From Fusobacterium ulcerans ATCC 49185 (GTDB lineage Bacteria; Fusobacteriota; Fusobacteriia; Fusobacteriales; Fusobacteriaceae), in NCBI RefSeq assembly GCF_900683735.1, contig NZ_LR215979.1:992001-1056000 (forward strand): a stretch of 64,000 bases of DNA. Reading direction: 5' to 3'. Each line of letters opens with the position of its first letter. Position 1 is the stretch's first letter. Under the pieces are notes generated by a model. The model did no database searches. It was not told the DNA's origin and saw nothing but the letters and a program-made list of their open reading frames with translations. The position numbers and the translations under genes are program-made. Shown here in pieces: positions 76 through 23,482 of this stretch.

Positions 76-672
76 ATGAATAAAAAAGGACAGGAAGTTA
101 GATATATAAATAAAAGTGATTTAGTAAATATAAGAAAATATTTTAAAGAAAATAAAAAAATAATAATGTTAGCATTAATCAATATAGGAGTAAATGTAGG
201 ATTAAGAATTTCAGATCTTTCTAGATTAAGATTTGAAAACATAAATGGTGATTATACAATAAGGTTAAAAGAAAAGAAAACTAAAAAAAATAGAAAAATA
301 AAGTTTAACTCTATATGTCAAAAAGCAATAAAAGAACTTAAATTTTATTATAAAGAACTAGGTTTTTCATCAGAAGAAGGTTTTTTATTTAAATCTTTGA
401 ATAGAAAGTATGTGAAGGAATTGATAGATAAACCTATTTCAACAGTAGGAATTTCTAAATACTTAAATAAAGCTAGAAAAGATTTAAATATTAGTTATCC
501 AATAGGAACTCATTCATTGAGGAAAACATGGGGACATAGAGTTTATAAAGGGACATTAGATATAGCAATAGTAATGACTATATTGAATCATTCTTCTGCC
601 AACCAAACATTAAAGTATATAGGAATAGAAGAAGATAAAATAAATAAAATTTATGAAAAGTTTGAAATTTAA
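76..672 (+). CDS. Small tyrosine recombinase (phage-integrase family)
   Basis: Catalytic domain of a tyrosine site-specific recombinase, 198 residues, with no N-terminal SAM-like core-binding domain. Visible catalytic residues are R44 (in GLRISDL), a lysine in the basic beta-hairpin around residues 67-73, H146xxR149 (HSLR), H172 (LNHSS) and the nucleophile Y181 (TLKYIGI), so the full R-K-H-R-H-Y set is present. The length matches stand-alone invertases such as FimB and FimE (about 200 residues) better than phage integrases (300-400 residues). The ATG follows a GAGGAG ribosome-binding site. It stands alone, with a hairpin terminator about 250 bases downstream. It could act on an invertible switch or be a relic of a mobile element; which one cannot be decided from the protein. 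Confidence 0.9.
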   Translation: MNKKGQEVRYINKSDLVNIRKYFKENKKIIMLALINIGVNVGLRISDLSRLRFENINGDYTIRLKEKKTKKNRKIKFNSICQKAIKELKFYYKELGFSSEEGFLFKSLNRKYVKELIDKPISTVGISKYLNKARKDLNISYPIGTHSLRKTWGHRVYKGTLDIAIVMTILNHSSANQTLKYIGIEEDKINKIYEKFEI

Positions 673-5468: not shown

Positions 5469-6266
5469 TTAGTTTAAAATATTTAACTTTTTAAAACTTT
5501 CTCTTACTATTTCTTCTCTTTTATATAGAAGTTCAGCAGTAGGATTATCAATATTAGTGGCAAAAATAAAAATATTATCAGGAGTTTCCAACCATCCAAC
5601 AAACCACCCTATTGGAATTTCTATATTATTAGTTGCCCAGCCTGTTTTGCCATGTAATACATAGTTTGTACCCTTTTCTAAAATTGTAATATCAGCAATT
5701 TCTTCCTGATGCTTAATGTTATAAGGTAATTTTTTTTGTGCTAAAAGAGTTAATAAGTTTATCTGTTCAAATGCACTAATTTTTAAAGGGCCATGTAACC
5801 AGAAAGAATCTACTTTTGTTCCAATATTTTTATTACCATAATTTAATTTTTCAATGTTCTCTTTCATTGATTTTAAACCTATTTTTTTTGCTAATTCTTT
5901 ATAAGCAGGAACCTGAGATACTTTTATTGCATACTTTAAACTTGAATCCTTAGCCCAAGATTCAAGAAAAACTTTTTTACCATCATATTTATAAAAAACT
6001 TCATCAACATCCCTGACACTTTCAGTTTCTAATCCTATTAAGCTATTAAAAATTTTAAAAGTTGAAGCTGGATAAAATTGTTGTTCAGCTCTTTCTCTAT
6101 TATAGCCTACAAAAACATCTTTTTTTAAATCATAGACAACAAAAGTTCCATTAATATTTTGATTTTTAAATATATATTTTATTTCATCATTTTCAAAGAA
6201 CTCAGTAGCTTTTAGTTGTGGGATAAATATAAAAAATATATTTATAATCAAAAAAAATTTTTTCAT
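5469..6266 (-). CDS. blaOXA: Class D (OXA-type) beta-lactamase
   Basis: Serine beta-lactamase that hydrolyses penicillins in the periplasm. All class D motifs are visible: S68-T-F-K71 (STFK, with the carbamylatable lysine), S117-Q-V119 (SxV), Y143-G-N145, W156 in SFWLHGP, and K207-T-G209. The length of 265 residues is normal for OXA enzymes. An N-terminal hydrophobic signal (MKKFFLIINIFFIFIPQLKA) precedes the mature enzyme. The ATG has GGAGG upstream. Class D enzymes are known from Fusobacterium (FUS-1/OXA-85), and this looks like that lineage rather than the clinical OXA-48 or OXA-23 groups. It stands alone between accessory relics; the spectrum cannot be told from sequence. Confidence 0.95.
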   Translation of the reverse strand: MKKFFLIINIFFIFIPQLKATEFFENDEIKYIFKNQNINGTFVVYDLKKDVFVGYNRERAEQQFYPASTFKIFNSLIGLETESVRDVDEVFYKYDGKKVFLESWAKDSSLKYAIKVSQVPAYKELAKKIGLKSMKENIEKLNYGNKNIGTKVDSFWLHGPLKISAFEQINLLTLLAQKKLPYNIKHQEEIADITILEKGTNYVLHGKTGWATNNIEIPIGWFVGWLETPDNIFIFATNIDNPTAELLYKREEIVRESFKKLNILN

Positions 6267-16493: not shown

Positions 16494-18059
16494 ATGAAAA
16501 ATAGTTTTAAAGATAATGTACAAGTCTTTGGTAGATCATTGCTTCTTCCAATAGCAGTAATGGCTCCAATAGGAATGGTAATGGGGATAACAGGAGCATT
16601 AACACAAAGTTATATGATTTCAAGATTTCCATTTTTAGGAAATGAATTTTTAAATATGCTTATCAACAGTTTGAAAAGTATAACAAGTGTGGTTTTTGAT
16701 AATATTCCTTTATTATTTGCAATGGGTGTGGCATATGGTATGTCAAAAAAAGAAAAAGGAATAGCTGTATTTGCTGCTGTTCTTGCATATCTTACTTTGA
16801 ATATTGTTATGAATGTATATCTGAAGACAACAGGTCTTCTTGTGACAAAGGGAATGTCACAGGTAGGTCAGGGAATAGTTTTAGGAATACATACTTTAAA
16901 AATAGATGCTGCTGGAGGTATTATCAGTGGACTTGTAGCTGCAAAGATAACTGACAGATTCTATAAGCTTGAACTTCCATTGGCTTTTGCTTTTTTCAGT
17001 GGTAAAAAATCAGTGCCTATTATAACATTTATGGTAATGATACCAGTAGGAATTGTAGTACCAGTTGTATGGGGAGTTATTACAAAAGTTCTGCTGAAAT
17101 CTTCTTTCATCTTTATGAATGATAAATTTGGATTAGCAGTTTACTGGTTCTTGCACAGATCACTTATTCCATTTGGACTGCACCATGTACTTGCTTCTAT
17201 AGTCAGATTTACAGAAGCTGGGGGAACATATATGATAGAGGGGCAAGCATATATTGGAATATTGAATGCTGTAAATCATGTACTGTTTGTATTAGGACCT
17301 CAAAGTCCTTATTGGAACGAACTTATGCCTAAATTAACAAGTTATCTGGGTGCAGGGCAGATGCTTACAACTCTATTTAGAGTACCAGCAATAGGGCTTG
17401 CAATGTATCATACTTCTTATGCAAGAAATAAAAAGATAGCTGGAGGGGTTATCCTTACAGTTGTACTTACAGCTTTTCTTGGAAATGTTACTGAGCCTTT
17501 AGAATTTTCATTTCTGTTTATAGCTCCTCAATTATTCGTTGTGTATGCTGTCCTTTGTGGAATAATGGCACTTCCATTGAATTTCTTAAATGTATCAATT
17601 GGATATATTAGAGGGACTATATTTGACTTTGGAATATTTGGACTGCTATACGAAAATACACACTGGGTACAGCTCATCCTTTTAGGTATTGTAAACTTTG
17701 TGGTATTCTATTTAGTATTCAGATTTGCAATTACTAAATTCAATCTTGAAACTCCAGGTAGGGAGCAGGGAGAAATGGAAGACAACAGAAATAATCAATA
17801 CCTGAAAGAAAAACAATATGGAAAAGTAGCTGAAATAGTGGTAGAGGGTCTTGGTGGAAAAGATAATATAGTAAATGCAGAGAACTGTATAACTAGATTA
17901 AGAGTGGATATAAAGAATAAAGAGCTTATCAATCAGGCAAAATTAAAAGAAGCAGGGGCTTCTGGAATATTCTTCCCACAAGAAAAGCATATCCATGTGG
18001 TATTTGGACCATATGTTGAATTTGTAAAAAATGCTGTTGATGACTATCTTAAAAAATAA
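16494..18059 (+). CDS. PTS permease, glucose/glucoside family EIICB
   Basis: 521 residues. Residues 1-420 form the EIIC transport domain with about ten membrane segments and the family motif FLGNVTEPLEF (about 331-341), where the glutamate binds sugar. A linker leads to an EIIB domain (about 440-521) with the phospho-cysteine C465 in AENCITRLRV. No EIIA domain is attached, so a separate EIIA must supply phosphate. The family brings in glucose, maltose, N-acetylglucosamine or glucosides as sugar phosphates; the substrate here is unknown. AAGGGGGAC precedes the ATG. It is separated from the upstream operon by a strong terminator and shares its message with the lyase 27 bases downstream. Confidence 0.9.
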   Translation: MKNSFKDNVQVFGRSLLLPIAVMAPIGMVMGITGALTQSYMISRFPFLGNEFLNMLINSLKSITSVVFDNIPLLFAMGVAYGMSKKEKGIAVFAAVLAYLTLNIVMNVYLKTTGLLVTKGMSQVGQGIVLGIHTLKIDAAGGIISGLVAAKITDRFYKLELPLAFAFFSGKKSVPIITFMVMIPVGIVVPVVWGVITKVLLKSSFIFMNDKFGLAVYWFLHRSLIPFGLHHVLASIVRFTEAGGTYMIEGQAYIGILNAVNHVLFVLGPQSPYWNELMPKLTSYLGAGQMLTTLFRVPAIGLAMYHTSYARNKKIAGGVILTVVLTAFLGNVTEPLEFSFLFIAPQLFVVYAVLCGIMALPLNFLNVSIGYIRGTIFDFGIFGLLYENTHWVQLILLGIVNFVVFYLVFRFAITKFNLETPGREQGEMEDNRNNQYLKEKQYGKVAEIVVEGLGGKDNIVNAENCITRLRVDIKNKELINQAKLKEAGASGIFFPQEKHIHVVFGPYVEFVKNAVDDYLKK

Positions 18060-18086
18060 AGAAATATATAGTTTTGGGAGGAAAGT

Positions 18087-19463
18087 ATGAGAGCACTCTA
18101 TGATTCAAAGAGTAAGACAATGAATTATTTTGGTATAAAGGAATTGATGTCTAAAGAAGCTAAATATCAAGCATGGCTGGATATAGAAGCTGCTCTGGCA
18201 AAAGCTCAGGGAGAATTTGGAATAATACCTAAGGAAGCTGCTGAAAATATTGGAAAAGCAGCTAAGGTAGAATATATAGATTTTAAATTGATGGATGAGA
18301 TATACAAAAAGATAGGACATGGGTTCGTTCCATTTGTAAAAGTTTTCATAAAAGCTTGTGATGAAATATCTGGAGAAAGTGAAAGTTCAAAATATATTCA
18401 TTATGGTGTAACCACTCAAAATATACAGCAGAGCGGACAGCTTATTGTATTGAAACAAATACATGAAAAATATCTTTTGATTTGCTCTAAAATACTTGAT
18501 AATCTAGCTAAACTTGCTGAGAATAATAAAGATTCGGTAATGGCTGGAAGGACGCATGGAAAACATGCCACTCCAATAACTTATGGATATAAGGTATCTG
18601 TATGGATAAGTGATATTCTTACAAGTGTAGAGAGAATGAAAGAAGTGGAGAAGAGGACTTTCAAAATAATGATGGGGGGAGCAGTTGGAGCTTTTAATAC
18701 AGTAGGAGAAACTGGGAGAAAAGTTCAGGACAGAGTGGCTGAAATACTTGGAATGTACTCTATGGATGTGCCTTCAAGAAATATAACAAGCCACAAAGAA
18801 GAATATATAATGGGACTGGCTCTTTTAGCAAACAACTGTCATAAAATAGCTGAGGAAGTATATAGTACTTCAATAGAGGAATATGGAGAAATATCAGAGG
18901 CTTATGAAGAGGGAACTGTGGGAAGCAGTACAATGCCTCAAAAAATTAACCCAAAACTTGCTAAGGGAATAATAGCTAATTCACAAAAACTTTATTCAAT
19001 AGTACCACTGGGATTATATTCAGGAAGCAGACCTTTTGAAGCTGACAGCTCATCATATATGCTTTTTGATGCAGCATTGGAAGAAGCTATGGAACTGATA
19101 ACAGAGGTGCTGTTAAGAACTGAGGAACTTACTAGAACAGTACAGGTATTTAAAGAAAGAATGTATCAGAATGTTCTTAACAATAAAGGGCTGGATAATA
19201 GTGAGTATATTATGATGAAGATAGCAGAGAAATTAGGAAAAGATAAGGCTCATTCAATAATTTATGAGTTGGCTATAAAATCAGAGGTAGAACATAAGGA
19301 GTATTTTCAGCTGTTAAAAGAAAATGAGATAATTTCATCAGCTTTTAGTGAGGAAGAGATAAAAAGTATGCTCAAACCTGAAAACTATATAGGATTATCT
19401 AGTGAACTAGCAGTGGAAATGGCAGAAAAGGCAAGAAAAAAAGCAGAAGAAATTAGAAAATAA
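18087..19463 (+). CDS. Fumarase/adenylosuccinate-lyase superfamily lyase
   Basis: 458 residues with the superfamily signature GSSTMPQKINP (about 278-288), a catalytic-acid histidine region GRTHGKHATP (154-163, H157) and HYGVTTQNIQQ (105-115). These are closer to adenylosuccinate lyase and 3-carboxymuconate cycloisomerase than to argininosuccinate lyase. Members eliminate fumarate or cyclise carboxylates. Its location right after a PTS permease and near a catabolic kinase suggests a breakdown role rather than purine synthesis, perhaps on an N-succinyl or other dicarboxylate-bearing substrate; that is inference. GGGAGGA precedes the ATG, and a hairpin follows the stop by 20 bases. Confidence 0.8.
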   Translation: MRALYDSKSKTMNYFGIKELMSKEAKYQAWLDIEAALAKAQGEFGIIPKEAAENIGKAAKVEYIDFKLMDEIYKKIGHGFVPFVKVFIKACDEISGESESSKYIHYGVTTQNIQQSGQLIVLKQIHEKYLLICSKILDNLAKLAENNKDSVMAGRTHGKHATPITYGYKVSVWISDILTSVERMKEVEKRTFKIMMGGAVGAFNTVGETGRKVQDRVAEILGMYSMDVPSRNITSHKEEYIMGLALLANNCHKIAEEVYSTSIEEYGEISEAYEEGTVGSSTMPQKINPKLAKGIIANSQKLYSIVPLGLYSGSRPFEADSSSYMLFDAALEEAMELITEVLLRTEELTRTVQVFKERMYQNVLNNKGLDNSEYIMMKIAEKLGKDKAHSIIYELAIKSEVEHKEYFQLLKENEIISSAFSEEEIKSMLKPENYIGLSSELAVEMAEKARKKAEEIRK

Positions 19464-19482
19464 ATATATAAATAAATTAAAG

Positions 19483-19528
19483 TGTCCATTAAAGTATTGA
19501 AATCGTCAATATTTATGGACATTTTTTT
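19483..19528 (+). terminator. Terminator after the lyase gene
   Basis: GTCCAT (19484-19489) pairs with ATGGAC (19515-19520), extended inside by AGTATTGA with TCAATATT, followed by seven T. Confidence 0.8.
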
Positions 19529-19565
19529 GTTGTTTGAAAATACTCTTAAAATCGTATATTTAAAA

Positions 19566-19592
19566 AAGGCGCATTTGTGTATAAAGGCGCCC
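19566..19592 (-). terminator. Hairpin stopping leftward transcription out of the switch
   Basis: GGCGC (19568-19572) pairs with GCGCC (19587-19591). On the minus strand it is followed by six T, making a terminator. Two of the pairing bases lie inside the invertible part, so the hairpin is complete only in the orientation shown. Confidence 0.55.
19574..19589 (+). repeat. Left inverted repeat of the predicted switch
   Basis: TTTGTGTATAAAGGCG, the exact reverse complement of 19723-19738. The match stops at both ends, giving a sharply bounded 16-bp repeat. Confidence 0.9.
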
Positions 19593-19616
19593 TTTTTTCA
19601 TGGAAATTTTATATTA

Positions 19617-19645
19617 ATTATATCCTTTAATTTTAAAAAAATCAA
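19617..19645 (-). promoter_or_regulatory. Leftward promoter inside the predicted switch
   Basis: On the minus strand: TTGATT (19640-19645), exactly 17 bases, TATAAT (19617-19622). It points away from the autotransporter and into the hairpin at 19566-19592. No equally good rightward promoter was found in the segment. Confidence 0.7.
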
Positions 19646-19718
19646 GAAAAAAGTTTTTTGGTGAAATAATATGTTCAAAAAATAGAATCTTTATATAGTG
19701 GAAAATACAAAGGGTTAA

Positions 19719-19750
19719 AGTTCGCCTTTATACACAAAAGAGAACTCTTT
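19719..19750 (+). terminator. Weak hairpin between switch and adhesin gene
   Basis: AGTTC (19719-19723) with GAACT (about 19743-19747) followed by CTTTTTTTT. A 5-bp stem with a long loop. The left half of the stem lies almost wholly in the invertible part, so it would vanish after inversion. Confidence 0.4.
19723..19738 (-). repeat. Right inverted repeat of the predicted switch
   Basis: CGCCTTTATACACAAA, the exact reverse complement of 19574-19589, with 133 bases between the two arms. Confidence 0.9.
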
Positions 19751-19792: not shown

Positions 19793-22700
19793 ATGCTAGA
19801 GAATATAATGAAAGCAGTAAAAAGAAAAGTAAAGAAAAAAAGTTTGAATGTAACAACAGCAGCTGTAGTAGGATTTTTGTTATCATGTCCATTGACAATG
19901 GGAGAAGGATTGGAAATAACTCAAGAGGCAGGAGAAAAAATATTATTTAATGATAAAGTCTACGATAAGGCAACACATCCATTTGTATATAATACTTTTG
20001 AGGATAATATCTACAGTAATAATATGGAAATAGTAAATAATGGACAGTTAGGTCTGGCAATAGAAATAGCTGATGATTTGCAACTAGAGATATATAATAA
20101 TAATTTAATATCAGCAGATAATAATGATGAGGCATATGGAATATATAATAGCAGCTCAAAAATAAAAAAAATAGAAAATAATGGAACAATATCAGCAAAA
20201 GGAACTAATTCCAGTAGTGGAATATATAATATTTATGGAGAAATAGAAAGTATAGTAAATACAGGAGAAATAATTGTAGAAACAACTGCCAGTTCCCAAT
20301 CTAGTTATGGGATATATAATCTTTCAAGTAAGATTGGAGATATAGTGAACGATGGAATAATATCAGCAGAAACAAAAGGAAATAATAGTGATGGATATGG
20401 AATATATAATCGTTTACACAATGATCAAGGAACAATAAAAAACATATTAAATAATGGCTTAGTACTAGGAAAAGGAATAGATAATGGATTAGGAATAAGA
20501 AATACAGGAATGATAAATAATATAAAAAATGCAGGAATAATATACGGAAATTCACTCAATCAGTCTTCAGGGGTACATAATGAAAGTACTGGAGTTATAA
20601 AAAAGATAAATAACAGTGGGAAAATTGTAGGAACAGTAGGAAGTCAAGCAAGAGGAATTTATAATTATTCTGGAACAATAAAAAGTATAGAAAATACAGG
20701 AATAATTTCTGGGGAAGGATCAAGGTTAGGGGCTGGAGTAGCTATGGGACCAATGAACAGTATCAGAAGCTCAATAAAGAATACATCAGATAATGAAACT
20801 AAAAATATAAGTAATACAGGAATAATATATGGAGCTGGAAATAGAGGCTTTGGAATTTTTATAAATGGAACAACAATAAGAACAATAGAAAACTCAGGAC
20901 TTATAGCAGGGGTAGGAAATAATGATGAAGCATATGGAGTTCAAAATAATTTTAATTCTTCAGAAATAGATAATATAAAAAATACAGGAAAAATTATGGG
21001 AATATCTGCAAATGGTAATAGTGTTGGATTATCAGATAATACTGGAGTTTCATCAATAACAAATCCAATAGATAACTTAGGAATGATAATAGGAAAAGGA
21101 AAGTCTTCTGGAACAGGATTTCGTAGTGAATCAATTGTTGGAGATAAAATAAATAATTTTGGAATAGTTTATGGAAATACTTATGCTCTTAGTGCAAATA
21201 GTCTAGGAGCAGTAGGAGGAAAGAACTATGGACTATTAATTGGAGAGCTAAATAATGTAGTAATAGGAGATGATGAAAAAGAAATAAAAAACTATGGAAT
21301 TGTATTTAAAGTTAAATCTAGTGACAAATATGATGTTTCATATAGATATGATGGAAGTGAAGATATAGATGTAAGTATGTTTTCTAATGAAAGACAAATG
21401 AAGGTTAAAAATGCTGCCACATCAGAAAATGGAAGTAGTAGCTTTTCAGAAAAAACTTATGAAGATTCTATAATAAATGGAATAACAGATACAATTAAAA
21501 TATCAGGAACAGGGAATACAATAAAAGGTTCTGTAGTAAATGCCTATACATCAGCAATAAAATTCGATGATAGTGGAGATAATTCCTTGACTATTTCTGG
21601 AAGTATTATAAATGGTGGGTTAGAGGATAAAGGAATAGCCATTAAGGGAGATTCTAAAAATGATGAATTGATTTTAGAGTCTGGAGAAGTAGAATTTAAA
21701 GATGGAAGTAGTGAAAAAATAAATACTGTAATAAATGGAAGTATAGATTTAGGTGAAGGGGACAACAAACTTACAATCTCTGAAGGAACAGTAATAAATG
21801 GAGAAATTATAACAGGAAGTGGAAATAATGCTCTTACTCTAGGAAAAGGAAATCTAAATCGCAGTGCAGAACAGGAAGAAATAAATATTTTTAATAATAT
21901 AAAAGGATTTGATGAAACATTAATTAATGGAAACATAACTATATTTGATAAAACTTATGTATTTGATAAAGACTTGAGTGTTGCTGAAGAAAAATTGACA
22001 GCAGAGCTTGGAGATATAACATTGGAAAATGGAAGCAATCTAATACTCAAAATAGATGGTACACAGAAAGAGGAAGGTAAAATTACAGGTCATGCATTGC
22101 ATGGAAATACAGGAAGTATATCATCTAATGGTGGGAAACTTTTGTTGGATGTAGGGAAATTATCTGTAGGAACTATAGTAAACTTTGGTGGAACAGAATT
22201 GACTGATTCAATGAAAGGAAATGAAATAAATTATGCTTTAGATGTGACATTGGACAGTCTTTCTCTTCTTCATAATATTGAAAAAATTTCAAGTGAAGAT
22301 ATCAAAGTAACAATAAAAGGAAATCTACCTGTAATGCCTTATCCAGATGATATAAATTATAATCAGTTAAATAAGATGTATCAAGGAATTCTTTCAACTG
22401 ATCAGATAAAATATTTTAATATTGTTAGTAAAGAAAATCTTTCTACTTTTTTAGGATATTTAAATAATATTTATGCAGGAAGTCCATACTCATATTCTAG
22501 TGAACTTTCAAGAAAATCAACAGGAATGTTCAGAGATATAGTCACTGATAATATCTTTAAATCTGATATAGGAAAATGGATGATATATGGGGGATTAACT
22601 CATGTAGATGGAGGAACTAAAGATACTTACTTTGGAAAAGGGTATTATACTTATGATATTGGAAGTTCAGATATAGAAACAGATACAAAAATAACAGGGG

Positions 22701-23482
22701 CATATATGTTGGGAGAATATGGAATATCTGACACTTTTACCTCTGGCATAGTTGTTGGAGGAAATAAACTTAAGTCTAATCTTTCTAATGGTTCAAAAAC
22801 AAATGGAGATACTCTATATGTTGGAGCTTATACTAAAAAATATATAGGAAATTTAAAAGTAATAGCAGGAGCAGGGTTTCAGTATGGAGATTATAATGCT
22901 GACAGAATAGCCCTAAATAAAGTAGCCTCTGACATAGCAGAGTCAATAATAAGATATTCTGATAATTACAATGATGTAGTATACGATATTTATTTAAATG
23001 GAAGATATTCTAATCCAATAGGAGATAATTTATTCTTAGAGCCTTATGCAACTCTATCATATACATACCTAGATCAAGATGGAGCTAATGAGGGAAGCAA
23101 AGTTCTTGCTATTGAAACAGATTCAAAATCATTTGATTATACAGTTGGAAAAATGGGAGTAGACTTGAAGAAAGTTATTCTACATTCAACTGGTAAAAGC
23201 ACTCTAACAGCAGGAGGCAGCTATACAAAAATATTAGATGGAGCAGAGGAAGAATATATCACAGGAAGATTTAAAGGTGGAAGAGATTTTGATATTTTAG
23301 TCGCTCACAAGAATGAACATAGCATAGGACTTAATATTAAGTATGCTCTTGAATTAGAAAATGGAGTGCTATTTGACATAAAAGGAATTTATACAATAGA
23401 AAGAGATTCTAATAATAATTCTGGAAAGAATAAGGCTAAAGAAGAATGGATAATAGGAACAGGGTTAGGATATAAATTTTAA
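19793..23482 (+). CDS. Autotransporter adhesin (type Va secretion)
   Basis: 1229 residues. A long basic signal region (MLENIMKAVKRKVKKKSLNV, then a hydrophobic stretch to about residue 37) leads into a passenger domain (about 38-920). The passenger is made of imperfect repeats around I-NTG-I-G and GIYN, the pattern of a beta-helix adhesin. The last 310 residues are an outer-membrane beta-barrel (from KWMIYGGLTHVDGG near 924) ending in aromatic GTGLGYKF, as required for BAM insertion. Fusobacterial genomes carry many such proteins, used for adhesion and coaggregation. AGAGGGG precedes the ATG. Expression is probably controlled by the invertible segment just upstream. Two HU-like genes follow on the same strand with no terminator between. 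Confidence 0.9.
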   Translation: MLENIMKAVKRKVKKKSLNVTTAAVVGFLLSCPLTMGEGLEITQEAGEKILFNDKVYDKATHPFVYNTFEDNIYSNNMEIVNNGQLGLAIEIADDLQLEIYNNNLISADNNDEAYGIYNSSSKIKKIENNGTISAKGTNSSSGIYNIYGEIESIVNTGEIIVETTASSQSSYGIYNLSSKIGDIVNDGIISAETKGNNSDGYGIYNRLHNDQGTIKNILNNGLVLGKGIDNGLGIRNTGMINNIKNAGIIYGNSLNQSSGVHNESTGVIKKINNSGKIVGTVGSQARGIYNYSGTIKSIENTGIISGEGSRLGAGVAMGPMNSIRSSIKNTSDNETKNISNTGIIYGAGNRGFGIFINGTTIRTIENSGLIAGVGNNDEAYGVQNNFNSSEIDNIKNTGKIMGISANGNSVGLSDNTGVSSITNPIDNLGMIIGKGKSSGTGFRSESIVGDKINNFGIVYGNTYALSANSLGAVGGKNYGLLIGELNNVVIGDDEKEIKNYGIVFKVKSSDKYDVSYRYDGSEDIDVSMFSNERQMKVKNAATSENGSSSFSEKTYEDSIINGITDTIKISGTGNTIKGSVVNAYTSAIKFDDSGDNSLTISGSIINGGLEDKGIAIKGDSKNDELILESGEVEFKDGSSEKINTVINGSIDLGEGDNKLTISEGTVINGEIITGSGNNALTLGKGNLNRSAEQEEINIFNNIKGFDETLINGNITIFDKTYVFDKDLSVAEEKLTAELGDITLENGSNLILKIDGTQKEEGKITGHALHGNTGSISSNGGKLLLDVGKLSVGTIVNFGGTELTDSMKGNEINYALDVTLDSLSLLHNIEKISSEDIKVTIKGNLPVMPYPDDINYNQLNKMYQGILSTDQIKYFNIVSKENLSTFLGYLNNIYAGSPYSYSSELSRKSTGMFRDIVTDNIFKSDIGKWMIYGGLTHVDGGTKDTYFGKGYYTYDIGSSDIETDTKITGAYMLGEYGISDTFTSGIVVGGNKLKSNLSNGSKTNGDTLYVGAYTKKYIGNLKVIAGAGFQYGDYNADRIALNKVASDIAESIIRYSDNYNDVVYDIYLNGRYSNPIGDNLFLEPYATLSYTYLDQDGANEGSKVLAIETDSKSFDYTVGKMGVDLKKVILHSTGKSTLTAGGSYTKILDGAEEEYITGRFKGGRDFDILVAHKNEHSIGLNIKYALELENGVLFDIKGIYTIERDSNNNSGKNKAKEEWIIGTGLGYKF

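Follow-up and report, generated by a model that had tools for sequence, protein, structure and literature searches.

The fim switch of Escherichia coli comprises fimS, FimB and FimE, and IHF, and FimB and FimE are small tyrosine recombinases similar in size to the 198-amino-acid (aa) protein considered below. The tyrosine recombinase Tsr19 of Bacteroides fragilis acts on both local and distant promoters, and Mpi of the same species inverts 13 regions (PMC4747536). In Clostridioides difficile, the pdcB switch is 174 bp long with imperfect 19-bp repeats, RecV is needed for some switches, and seven sequences invert in R20291 (PMC9286219). Our search of the open literature (most subscription papers and preprints lay outside its scope) found no report of invertible promoters in Fusobacterium. 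Here, we analyze a stretch of 64,000 nucleotides of the Fusobacterium ulcerans ATCC 49185 chromosome (NZ_LR215979.1, positions 992,001 to 1,056,000; hereafter, the window), in which a 153-bp segment lies between inverted 26-bp sites upstream of an autotransporter gene. Judging from sequence comparison, this segment is probably an invertible promoter caught in the OFF orientation, one of about 25 in the genome. Sites of the same family were found in four Fusobacterium genomes (G000; G001; G002, which is F. varium Fv113-g1; and G003), and 57 other relatives were searched for comparison.

The window element resembles the fim switch in that a short promoter segment between inverted repeats precedes a surface structure. 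It differs in number, with one locus there and about 25 here, and in that the recombinase gene lies 19 kb from the switch. The 198-aa recombinase fits FimB and FimE in size and Pfam family, and we set it beside them by description. The B. fragilis master invertases Mpi, Tsr0667, and Tsr19 offer another parallel, since there one enzyme flips many distant surface-gene promoters. However, Mpi is a serine recombinase, B. fragilis belongs to another phylum, and the system described here has mainly autotransporter targets, more pairs per genome, and locus-specific 6-bp centers. The C. difficile switches are similar as several invertible segments of comparable size but belong to a different phylum with different targets, and RecV is likened here by description rather than by sequence. 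The features of the window are as follows.

Positions 19580 to 19732: predicted invertible segment, 153 bp from center to center, as deduced from the paired sites.
Positions 19567 to 19592: left (gene-distal) 26-bp site, AGGCGCATTT/GTGTAT/AAAGGCGCCC, with its center at 19577-19582; it contains the left 16-mer (19574-19589).
Positions 19720 to 19745: right (gene-proximal) 26-bp site, GTTCGCCTTT/ATACAC/AAAAGAGAAC, with its center at 19730-19735; it contains the right 16-mer (19723-19738) and fits the family consensus.
Positions 19617 to 19645, minus strand: promoter TTGATT-17-TATAAT, aimed away from the autotransporter gene, with its -10 box 43 bp from the center of the distal site.
Positions 19667 to 19695, plus strand: location of this promoter after in silico inversion between the site centers (-35 box, 19667-19672; -10 box, 19690-19695).
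Positions 19562 to 19598: terminator-like hairpin with a U-tract, formed by the distal site and, according to folding, strongest in the outward (minus-strand) transcript.
Positions 19793 to 23482, plus strand: predicted target gene, encoding a 1229-aa autotransporter (PF03797 at residues 952-1191, E=6e-22).
Positions 76 to 672, plus strand: gene for the 198-aa tyrosine recombinase, the best invertase candidate (PF00589, E=3.9e-21).
Positions 18087 to 19463, plus strand: upstream gene of the adenylosuccinate-lyase type (PF00206, PF10397), directed towards the element.
Positions 19479 to 19528, plus strand: predicted terminator of the upstream lyase gene, a hairpin of -18.5 kcal/mol followed by a T-run.

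The sequence TTTGTGTATAAAGGCG forms a perfect 16-bp inverted repeat, at 19574-19589 on the plus strand and 19723-19738 on the minus strand, with a spacing of 133 bases. It is the sole perfect inverted repeat of at least 16 bp with a loop of at most 400 bases in the 64-kb window, and the chance expectation for such a repeat (loops of 60 to 400 bases) was a mean of 0.03 in 30 first-order Markov simulations. The full unit at each side is a 26-bp site composed of a 6-bp center between two 10-bp arms; its core, where the two sites match best, is the 16-mer. The left site is a variant with GC-rich outer ends and resembles one site of the pairs in loci L052, L079, L080, and L081. An earlier note on this DNA, made from the sequence alone, had described the 16-bp repeats in front of an adhesin gene, and we recovered them with identical positions and spacing. 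Its near-consensus minus-strand promoter directed away from the gene is likewise present (TTGATT-17-TATAAT, 19645 to 19617), and its failure to find a comparable rightward promoter agrees with our best candidate within the element, GTGAAA-16-TAGAAT, being weaker (9/12). In silico inversion reproduced the -10 box that the note had predicted at 19690-19695, on the plus strand.

Taken alone, the window promoter is unremarkable, matching 10 of 12 consensus positions; four such sites were found in a 600-bp stretch versus 3.0 expected. It gains weight because its position is that of the near-consensus promoters of relatives, at an equal distance from the site. We read the window locus as OFF because the promoter lies at the conserved distance of the family and because a related adhesin locus in G003 (L073), which has the same promoter, was also called OFF. 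The hairpin of the distal site folds with a predicted energy of -14.8 kcal/mol in the outward transcript and -11.4 kcal/mol on the plus strand, and the hybrid site that would be encountered after inversion folds more weakly, at -7.8 kcal/mol. The idea that inversion makes a terminator only in the OFF state is thus true for the window (-14.8 versus -7.8) but not in general: over 56 loci, the hairpin was stronger in OFF in 33 and stronger in ON in 19. Because this is only a tendency, we treat terminator behavior as a local feature of the window. At the B. fragilis Tsr19 locus, repeats lying between the promoter and the gene lower transcription (PMC4747536).

The 16-mer recurs, with changes, as inverted pairs throughout the 3.84-Mb genome. 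The family site is a 26-bp near-palindrome consisting of GTTCNCNTTT, a 6-bp center, and AAANGNGAAC. With one mismatch allowed, the pattern GTTCNNNTTTRTNTATAAANNNGAAC gave 35/36, 47/44, 24/24, and 21/25 forward/reverse matches in G000, G001, G002, and G003, respectively, counts that partly score one near-palindromic site on both strands, and gave no match in the 57 other relatives. The reversed pattern, used as a control, had no match in the four site-bearing genomes. A scan of GTDB r220 contigs, a set that may lack near relatives of the window, returned only four scattered single matches. In the scans of viral contigs, one contig had an exact site match, and its switch was oriented like its G003 relatives.

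The catalogue comprises 92 inverted pairs: 25, 23, 26, and 18 in G000, G001, G002, and G003, respectively. Seventy-seven of these pairs were found by site score alone, without use of the center; in the other 15, the window included, a weaker second site was accepted on its matching center, and these were excluded from the test of center identity. The 6-bp center was identical between partners in 76 of the 77 pairs, whereas 2000 shuffles, with either orientation allowed, gave 35 such pairs on average and never more than 46. In a set of 87 pairs, ten of which had been selected because their centers match, within-pair mismatches affected 282/1740 arm positions and 2/522 center positions. Centers vary by locus, with ATGTAT, ATCTAT, GTGTAT, ATATAA, GTATAT, ATGGAT, AGGTAT, and others represented. 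Many loci are paralogues, and hence the pairs are not all independent. Asymmetric centers matched between partners, together with looser arms, would be as expected from the overlap region of a tyrosine recombinase. The lone exception to center identity is the G001 pair 1564473/1564624 (L129, G001:C1:1564473-1564649), with centers ATACAT and ATCTAT. This chimeric pair sits between two loci, each of which has one of its two centers. It is possibly a locked product of recombination between the neighboring loci, and it would not be expected to flip because its centers differ.

Orientation was called across the catalogue from promoter scores with E. coli-like weights, and genes in the loci around the sites were called as open reading frames rather than taken from annotation. 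The promoter inside the pairs is near consensus, most often TTGACT-17-TATAAT, and its -10 box lies about 33, 42, or 86 bp from the site center, depending on the length class. Among the 54 pairs adjoining genes of at least 800 aa, a promoter with a score of at least 9 was directed away from the gene in 45 and towards it in 2; resampled segments contained such a promoter in 0.9% of cases per strand. The orientation rule classified these 54 pairs as 49 OFF, 1 ON, and 4 unclear, and all 92 pairs as 67 OFF, 7 ON, and 18 unclear, with the targets of L130 and L148 corrected by hand. In 45 of 53 loci, the nearest gene beyond the far end of the element is oriented towards the element, which leaves the outward promoter without an evident gene to transcribe. 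Apart from L069, the ON calls were five switches before HU-like genes with an ATATAA or GTATAA center, found across all four genomes, and L141, whose target resembles a chain-length determinant by eye and has no Pfam match. At L061:944-1120, L158, L136, L157, and L164, which have ATATAA/GTATAA-type centers, the promoter faces HU-like gene pairs, opposite to the arrangement in the autotransporter switches.

Signs of inversion came from paralogous loci, whose inner segments were compared without their half-sites. With respect to eleven segments that precede homologous genes in G000 and G003, the inner segment of L069 (G000:958543) is flipped, with alignment scores of 87-122 inverted, 20-38 in the same orientation, and a chance maximum of 51. 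The gene-proximal flanks of L069 align with the same homologues in the normal direction, and this is the sole autotransporter copy with its promoter facing the gene. Similarly, L064 has an inner segment that runs opposite to those of L056, L058, and L059, although part of this segment also matches unflipped; the flanks of L064 share about 98% (upstream) and 93% (downstream) identity with those of L058. These alignments show that inversion occurred in evolution in the L069 and L064 groups. The flanks within the latter group are mosaic: L056 resembles L059 upstream and is identical to L058 downstream, and L058 resembles L064 upstream. This arrangement in L056, L058, L059, and L064 points to exchange of sequence among loci, at the switch or close to it.

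The 198-aa protein has the invariant residues R44, K68, H146, R149, H172, and Y181 and is most likely the invertase, given its co-occurrence with the sites in four genomes. Orthologues at 80-84% identity were found in exactly the four site-bearing genomes, and the best match among other relatives was 58%. It was the only recombinase tested with close orthologues that track G000-G003. A 333-aa Xer-like recombinase occurs family-wide and was therefore discarded as the specific invertase; a 189-aa recombinase was discarded because its relatives were found in genomes without sites. A serine-invertase system of the Hin or Mpi type would place a small serine recombinase in every site-bearing genome; no such enzyme was common to G000-G003, and the single PF00239 match in each of G000, G001, and G003 falls within a frame of 456-504 aa. 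The best Protein Data Bank matches of the 198-aa recombinase were XerA-like. A single-sequence structure model was poor (mean predicted local distance difference test score, 36.9) and was not used. A scan of genome contigs with this recombinase, again in a set that may lack the near relatives of the window, found no relative. Plasmids of F. varium, F. polymorphum, and Cetobacterium encode small tyrosine recombinases that are 52-64% identical to it (L179:15357-15953 and 17618-18202; L180:7995-8600; L181:7998-8543). No convincing repeats were found near these plasmid genes and other fusobacterial recombinase relatives, and part of this family may serve another purpose, e.g., plasmid resolution.

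The mechanism that we propose relies on a tyrosine recombinase, for which the 198-aa protein is the likeliest candidate. The enzyme would exchange strands at the 6-bp center GTGTAT of each site, and exchange at both centers would flip the 153-bp segment. As assembled, the promoter would read away from the autotransporter gene into the terminator-like distal hairpin, leaving the gene OFF; in the flipped segment, this promoter would instead be directed into the gene and turn it ON. We infer the point of strand exchange, the acting recombinase, the expression states, and continued switching at the window locus. The element would belong to a set of about 25 switches with a common site architecture and locus-specific centers, mostly located before surface-protein genes, with nearly all autotransporter copies presumably OFF. 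An invertible-promoter switch calls for a promoter enclosed by inverted repeats adjoining the controlled gene, which is the arrangement found; a tyrosine-recombinase switch calls for two inverted arms around an overlap identical in both partners, as found in 76 of 77 pairs, and for a catalytic tyrosine recombinase occurring with the sites, for which the 198-aa protein is the candidate by co-occurrence. The earlier note had proposed an invertible promoter caught OFF before a surface protein, and this is the reading best supported by comparison, based on 92 homologous pairs, matched centers, a promoter aimed away, two inverted paralogue groups, and a co-occurring recombinase. The note had considered a single locus, and its view is now extended to one switch among about 25; it had also named the genus Fusobacterium correctly, the nearest named relative being F. 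varium Fv113-g1.

Several observations weigh against this explanation. The enzyme was assigned solely by co-occurrence, over a small number of genomes, a paralogue (73-75% identity) is present in G000, G002, and G003 (only a broken relative of it was found in G001), and the 52-64% identical relatives lie on plasmids without such repeats. The automatic orientation rule classed the window as unclear, with scores of 7.9 away and 7.0 towards, the latter from a weak match overlapping the distal site. The inverted copies L069 and L064 are diverged paralogues, and orientation differences were seen between paralogous loci only; they are therefore evidence for past rather than present inversion. The ratio of 49 OFF to 1 ON could reflect copies that are mostly locked or flip very rarely. 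Such locking is the substance of one alternative, in which a former switch is now fixed OFF at the window through decay of its distal site. This site does deviate from the consensus at its outer ends, which also counts against our reading, and the family as a whole shows a strong orientation bias. Yet the GC-rich variant is likewise kept in L052, L079, L080, and L081, in two genomes, the window's 6-bp centers match exactly, and its promoter is preserved, so that we consider a locked copy unlikely.

A second alternative holds that the sites do not recombine at all. They would be palindromic operators or terminators, arranged in pairs within a fixed control region, whose conserved outward promoter produces an antisense or regulatory RNA. 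The promoter is aimed away in nearly all autotransporter copies, and the near-palindromic sites include several that fold as hairpins with U-tracts. However, nothing in the function of an operator or terminator calls for an asymmetric 6-bp center, identical within but not between pairs; hairpin strength is not consistently linked to one orientation; and in two paralogue groups the inner segment is inverted between non-inverted flanks. A fixed control region thus appears even less likely than a locked switch. Least probable, to the point that we give it very little credence, is that the elements are non-autonomous transposon-like repeats (MITEs) whose terminal inverted repeats enclose an incidental promoter. 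Their many copies, paired inverted ends, and internal similarity would fit, but the copies precede the same kinds of surface-protein or HU-like genes instead of occupying scattered positions, and their centers differ between copies while matching within each. Moreover, similarity often extends into the flanks, and the copies therefore seem to spread with their genes.

An invertible promoter before the autotransporter gene, shared in design with other loci, would bear on the biology of these bacteria. The number of autotransporters is unusually high in F. varium and its relatives, which inhabit the gut; F. varium Fv113-g1 has 44, and the paper describing them gives no mechanism for controlling so many (PMC5720691). 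The orientation data suggest that the bacterium keeps most switch-bearing surface proteins silent and flips individual ones on. A shared promoter-inversion system, if true, would explain how most autotransporters could be silent at a given moment, and cell-to-cell variation in surface proteins would then be concealed in assembled genomes and in bulk expression data. The 18-26 pairs per genome would surpass the 13 Mpi regions of B. fragilis, and the natural variety of 6-bp centers would offer a ready test of the overlap identity required by a tyrosine recombinase. Tentatively, and with low confidence, we can picture a genome-wide repertoire switch, in which one recombinase flips 18-26 promoters and the centers act as addresses that confine each pair. 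Autotransporter switches would then rest OFF, and switches with ATATAA/GTATAA centers before stand-alone HU-like gene pairs would rest ON (four genomes), so that switching of these DNA-bending proteins could in turn influence the other switches; adhesin cassettes would be reshuffled by occasional crossing between loci whose centers are the same.

G000 contains 39 PF03797 matches, about 16 of which lie directly behind a catalogued switch, judged by position. Other target genes encode a barrel protein of the outer membrane (PF13505), an MBOAT acyltransferase (PF03062), and a glycosyltransferase of family 9 (PF01075), among others. Some switches face an HU-like gene pair (PF00216) heading a run of genes in the same direction. 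At L054, L056, L058, L059, and L064, this run reaches the start of another autotransporter-type frame within about 2-4 kb, very long in four of the five, and these frames may be switched too. Very long autotransporter frames (about 3100-3600 aa) form a class in G000:C1, with barrels at 825118, 1432554, 1715808, 3152248, and others. For several of them, the closest catalogued switch is over 20 kb away, but the notion that very long autotransporters generally lack switches is wrong for some.

Many switches are preceded by a repeated block that encodes a DnaD-like/winged-helix protein, an IstB/DnaC-like ATPase, and an excisionase-like helix-turn-helix protein (L058:3582-7503; L186:1589-3501). The block is a phage-like replication module, one copy of which is in the viral-contig record IMGVR_UViG_2806310933, and adhesin cassettes may travel with a mobile element. 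Elsewhere in the window, positions 5469-6266 on the minus strand contain a class D beta-lactamase gene that exceeds the NCBIfam class D cutoff, with the OXA-63 and OXA-85 models closest.
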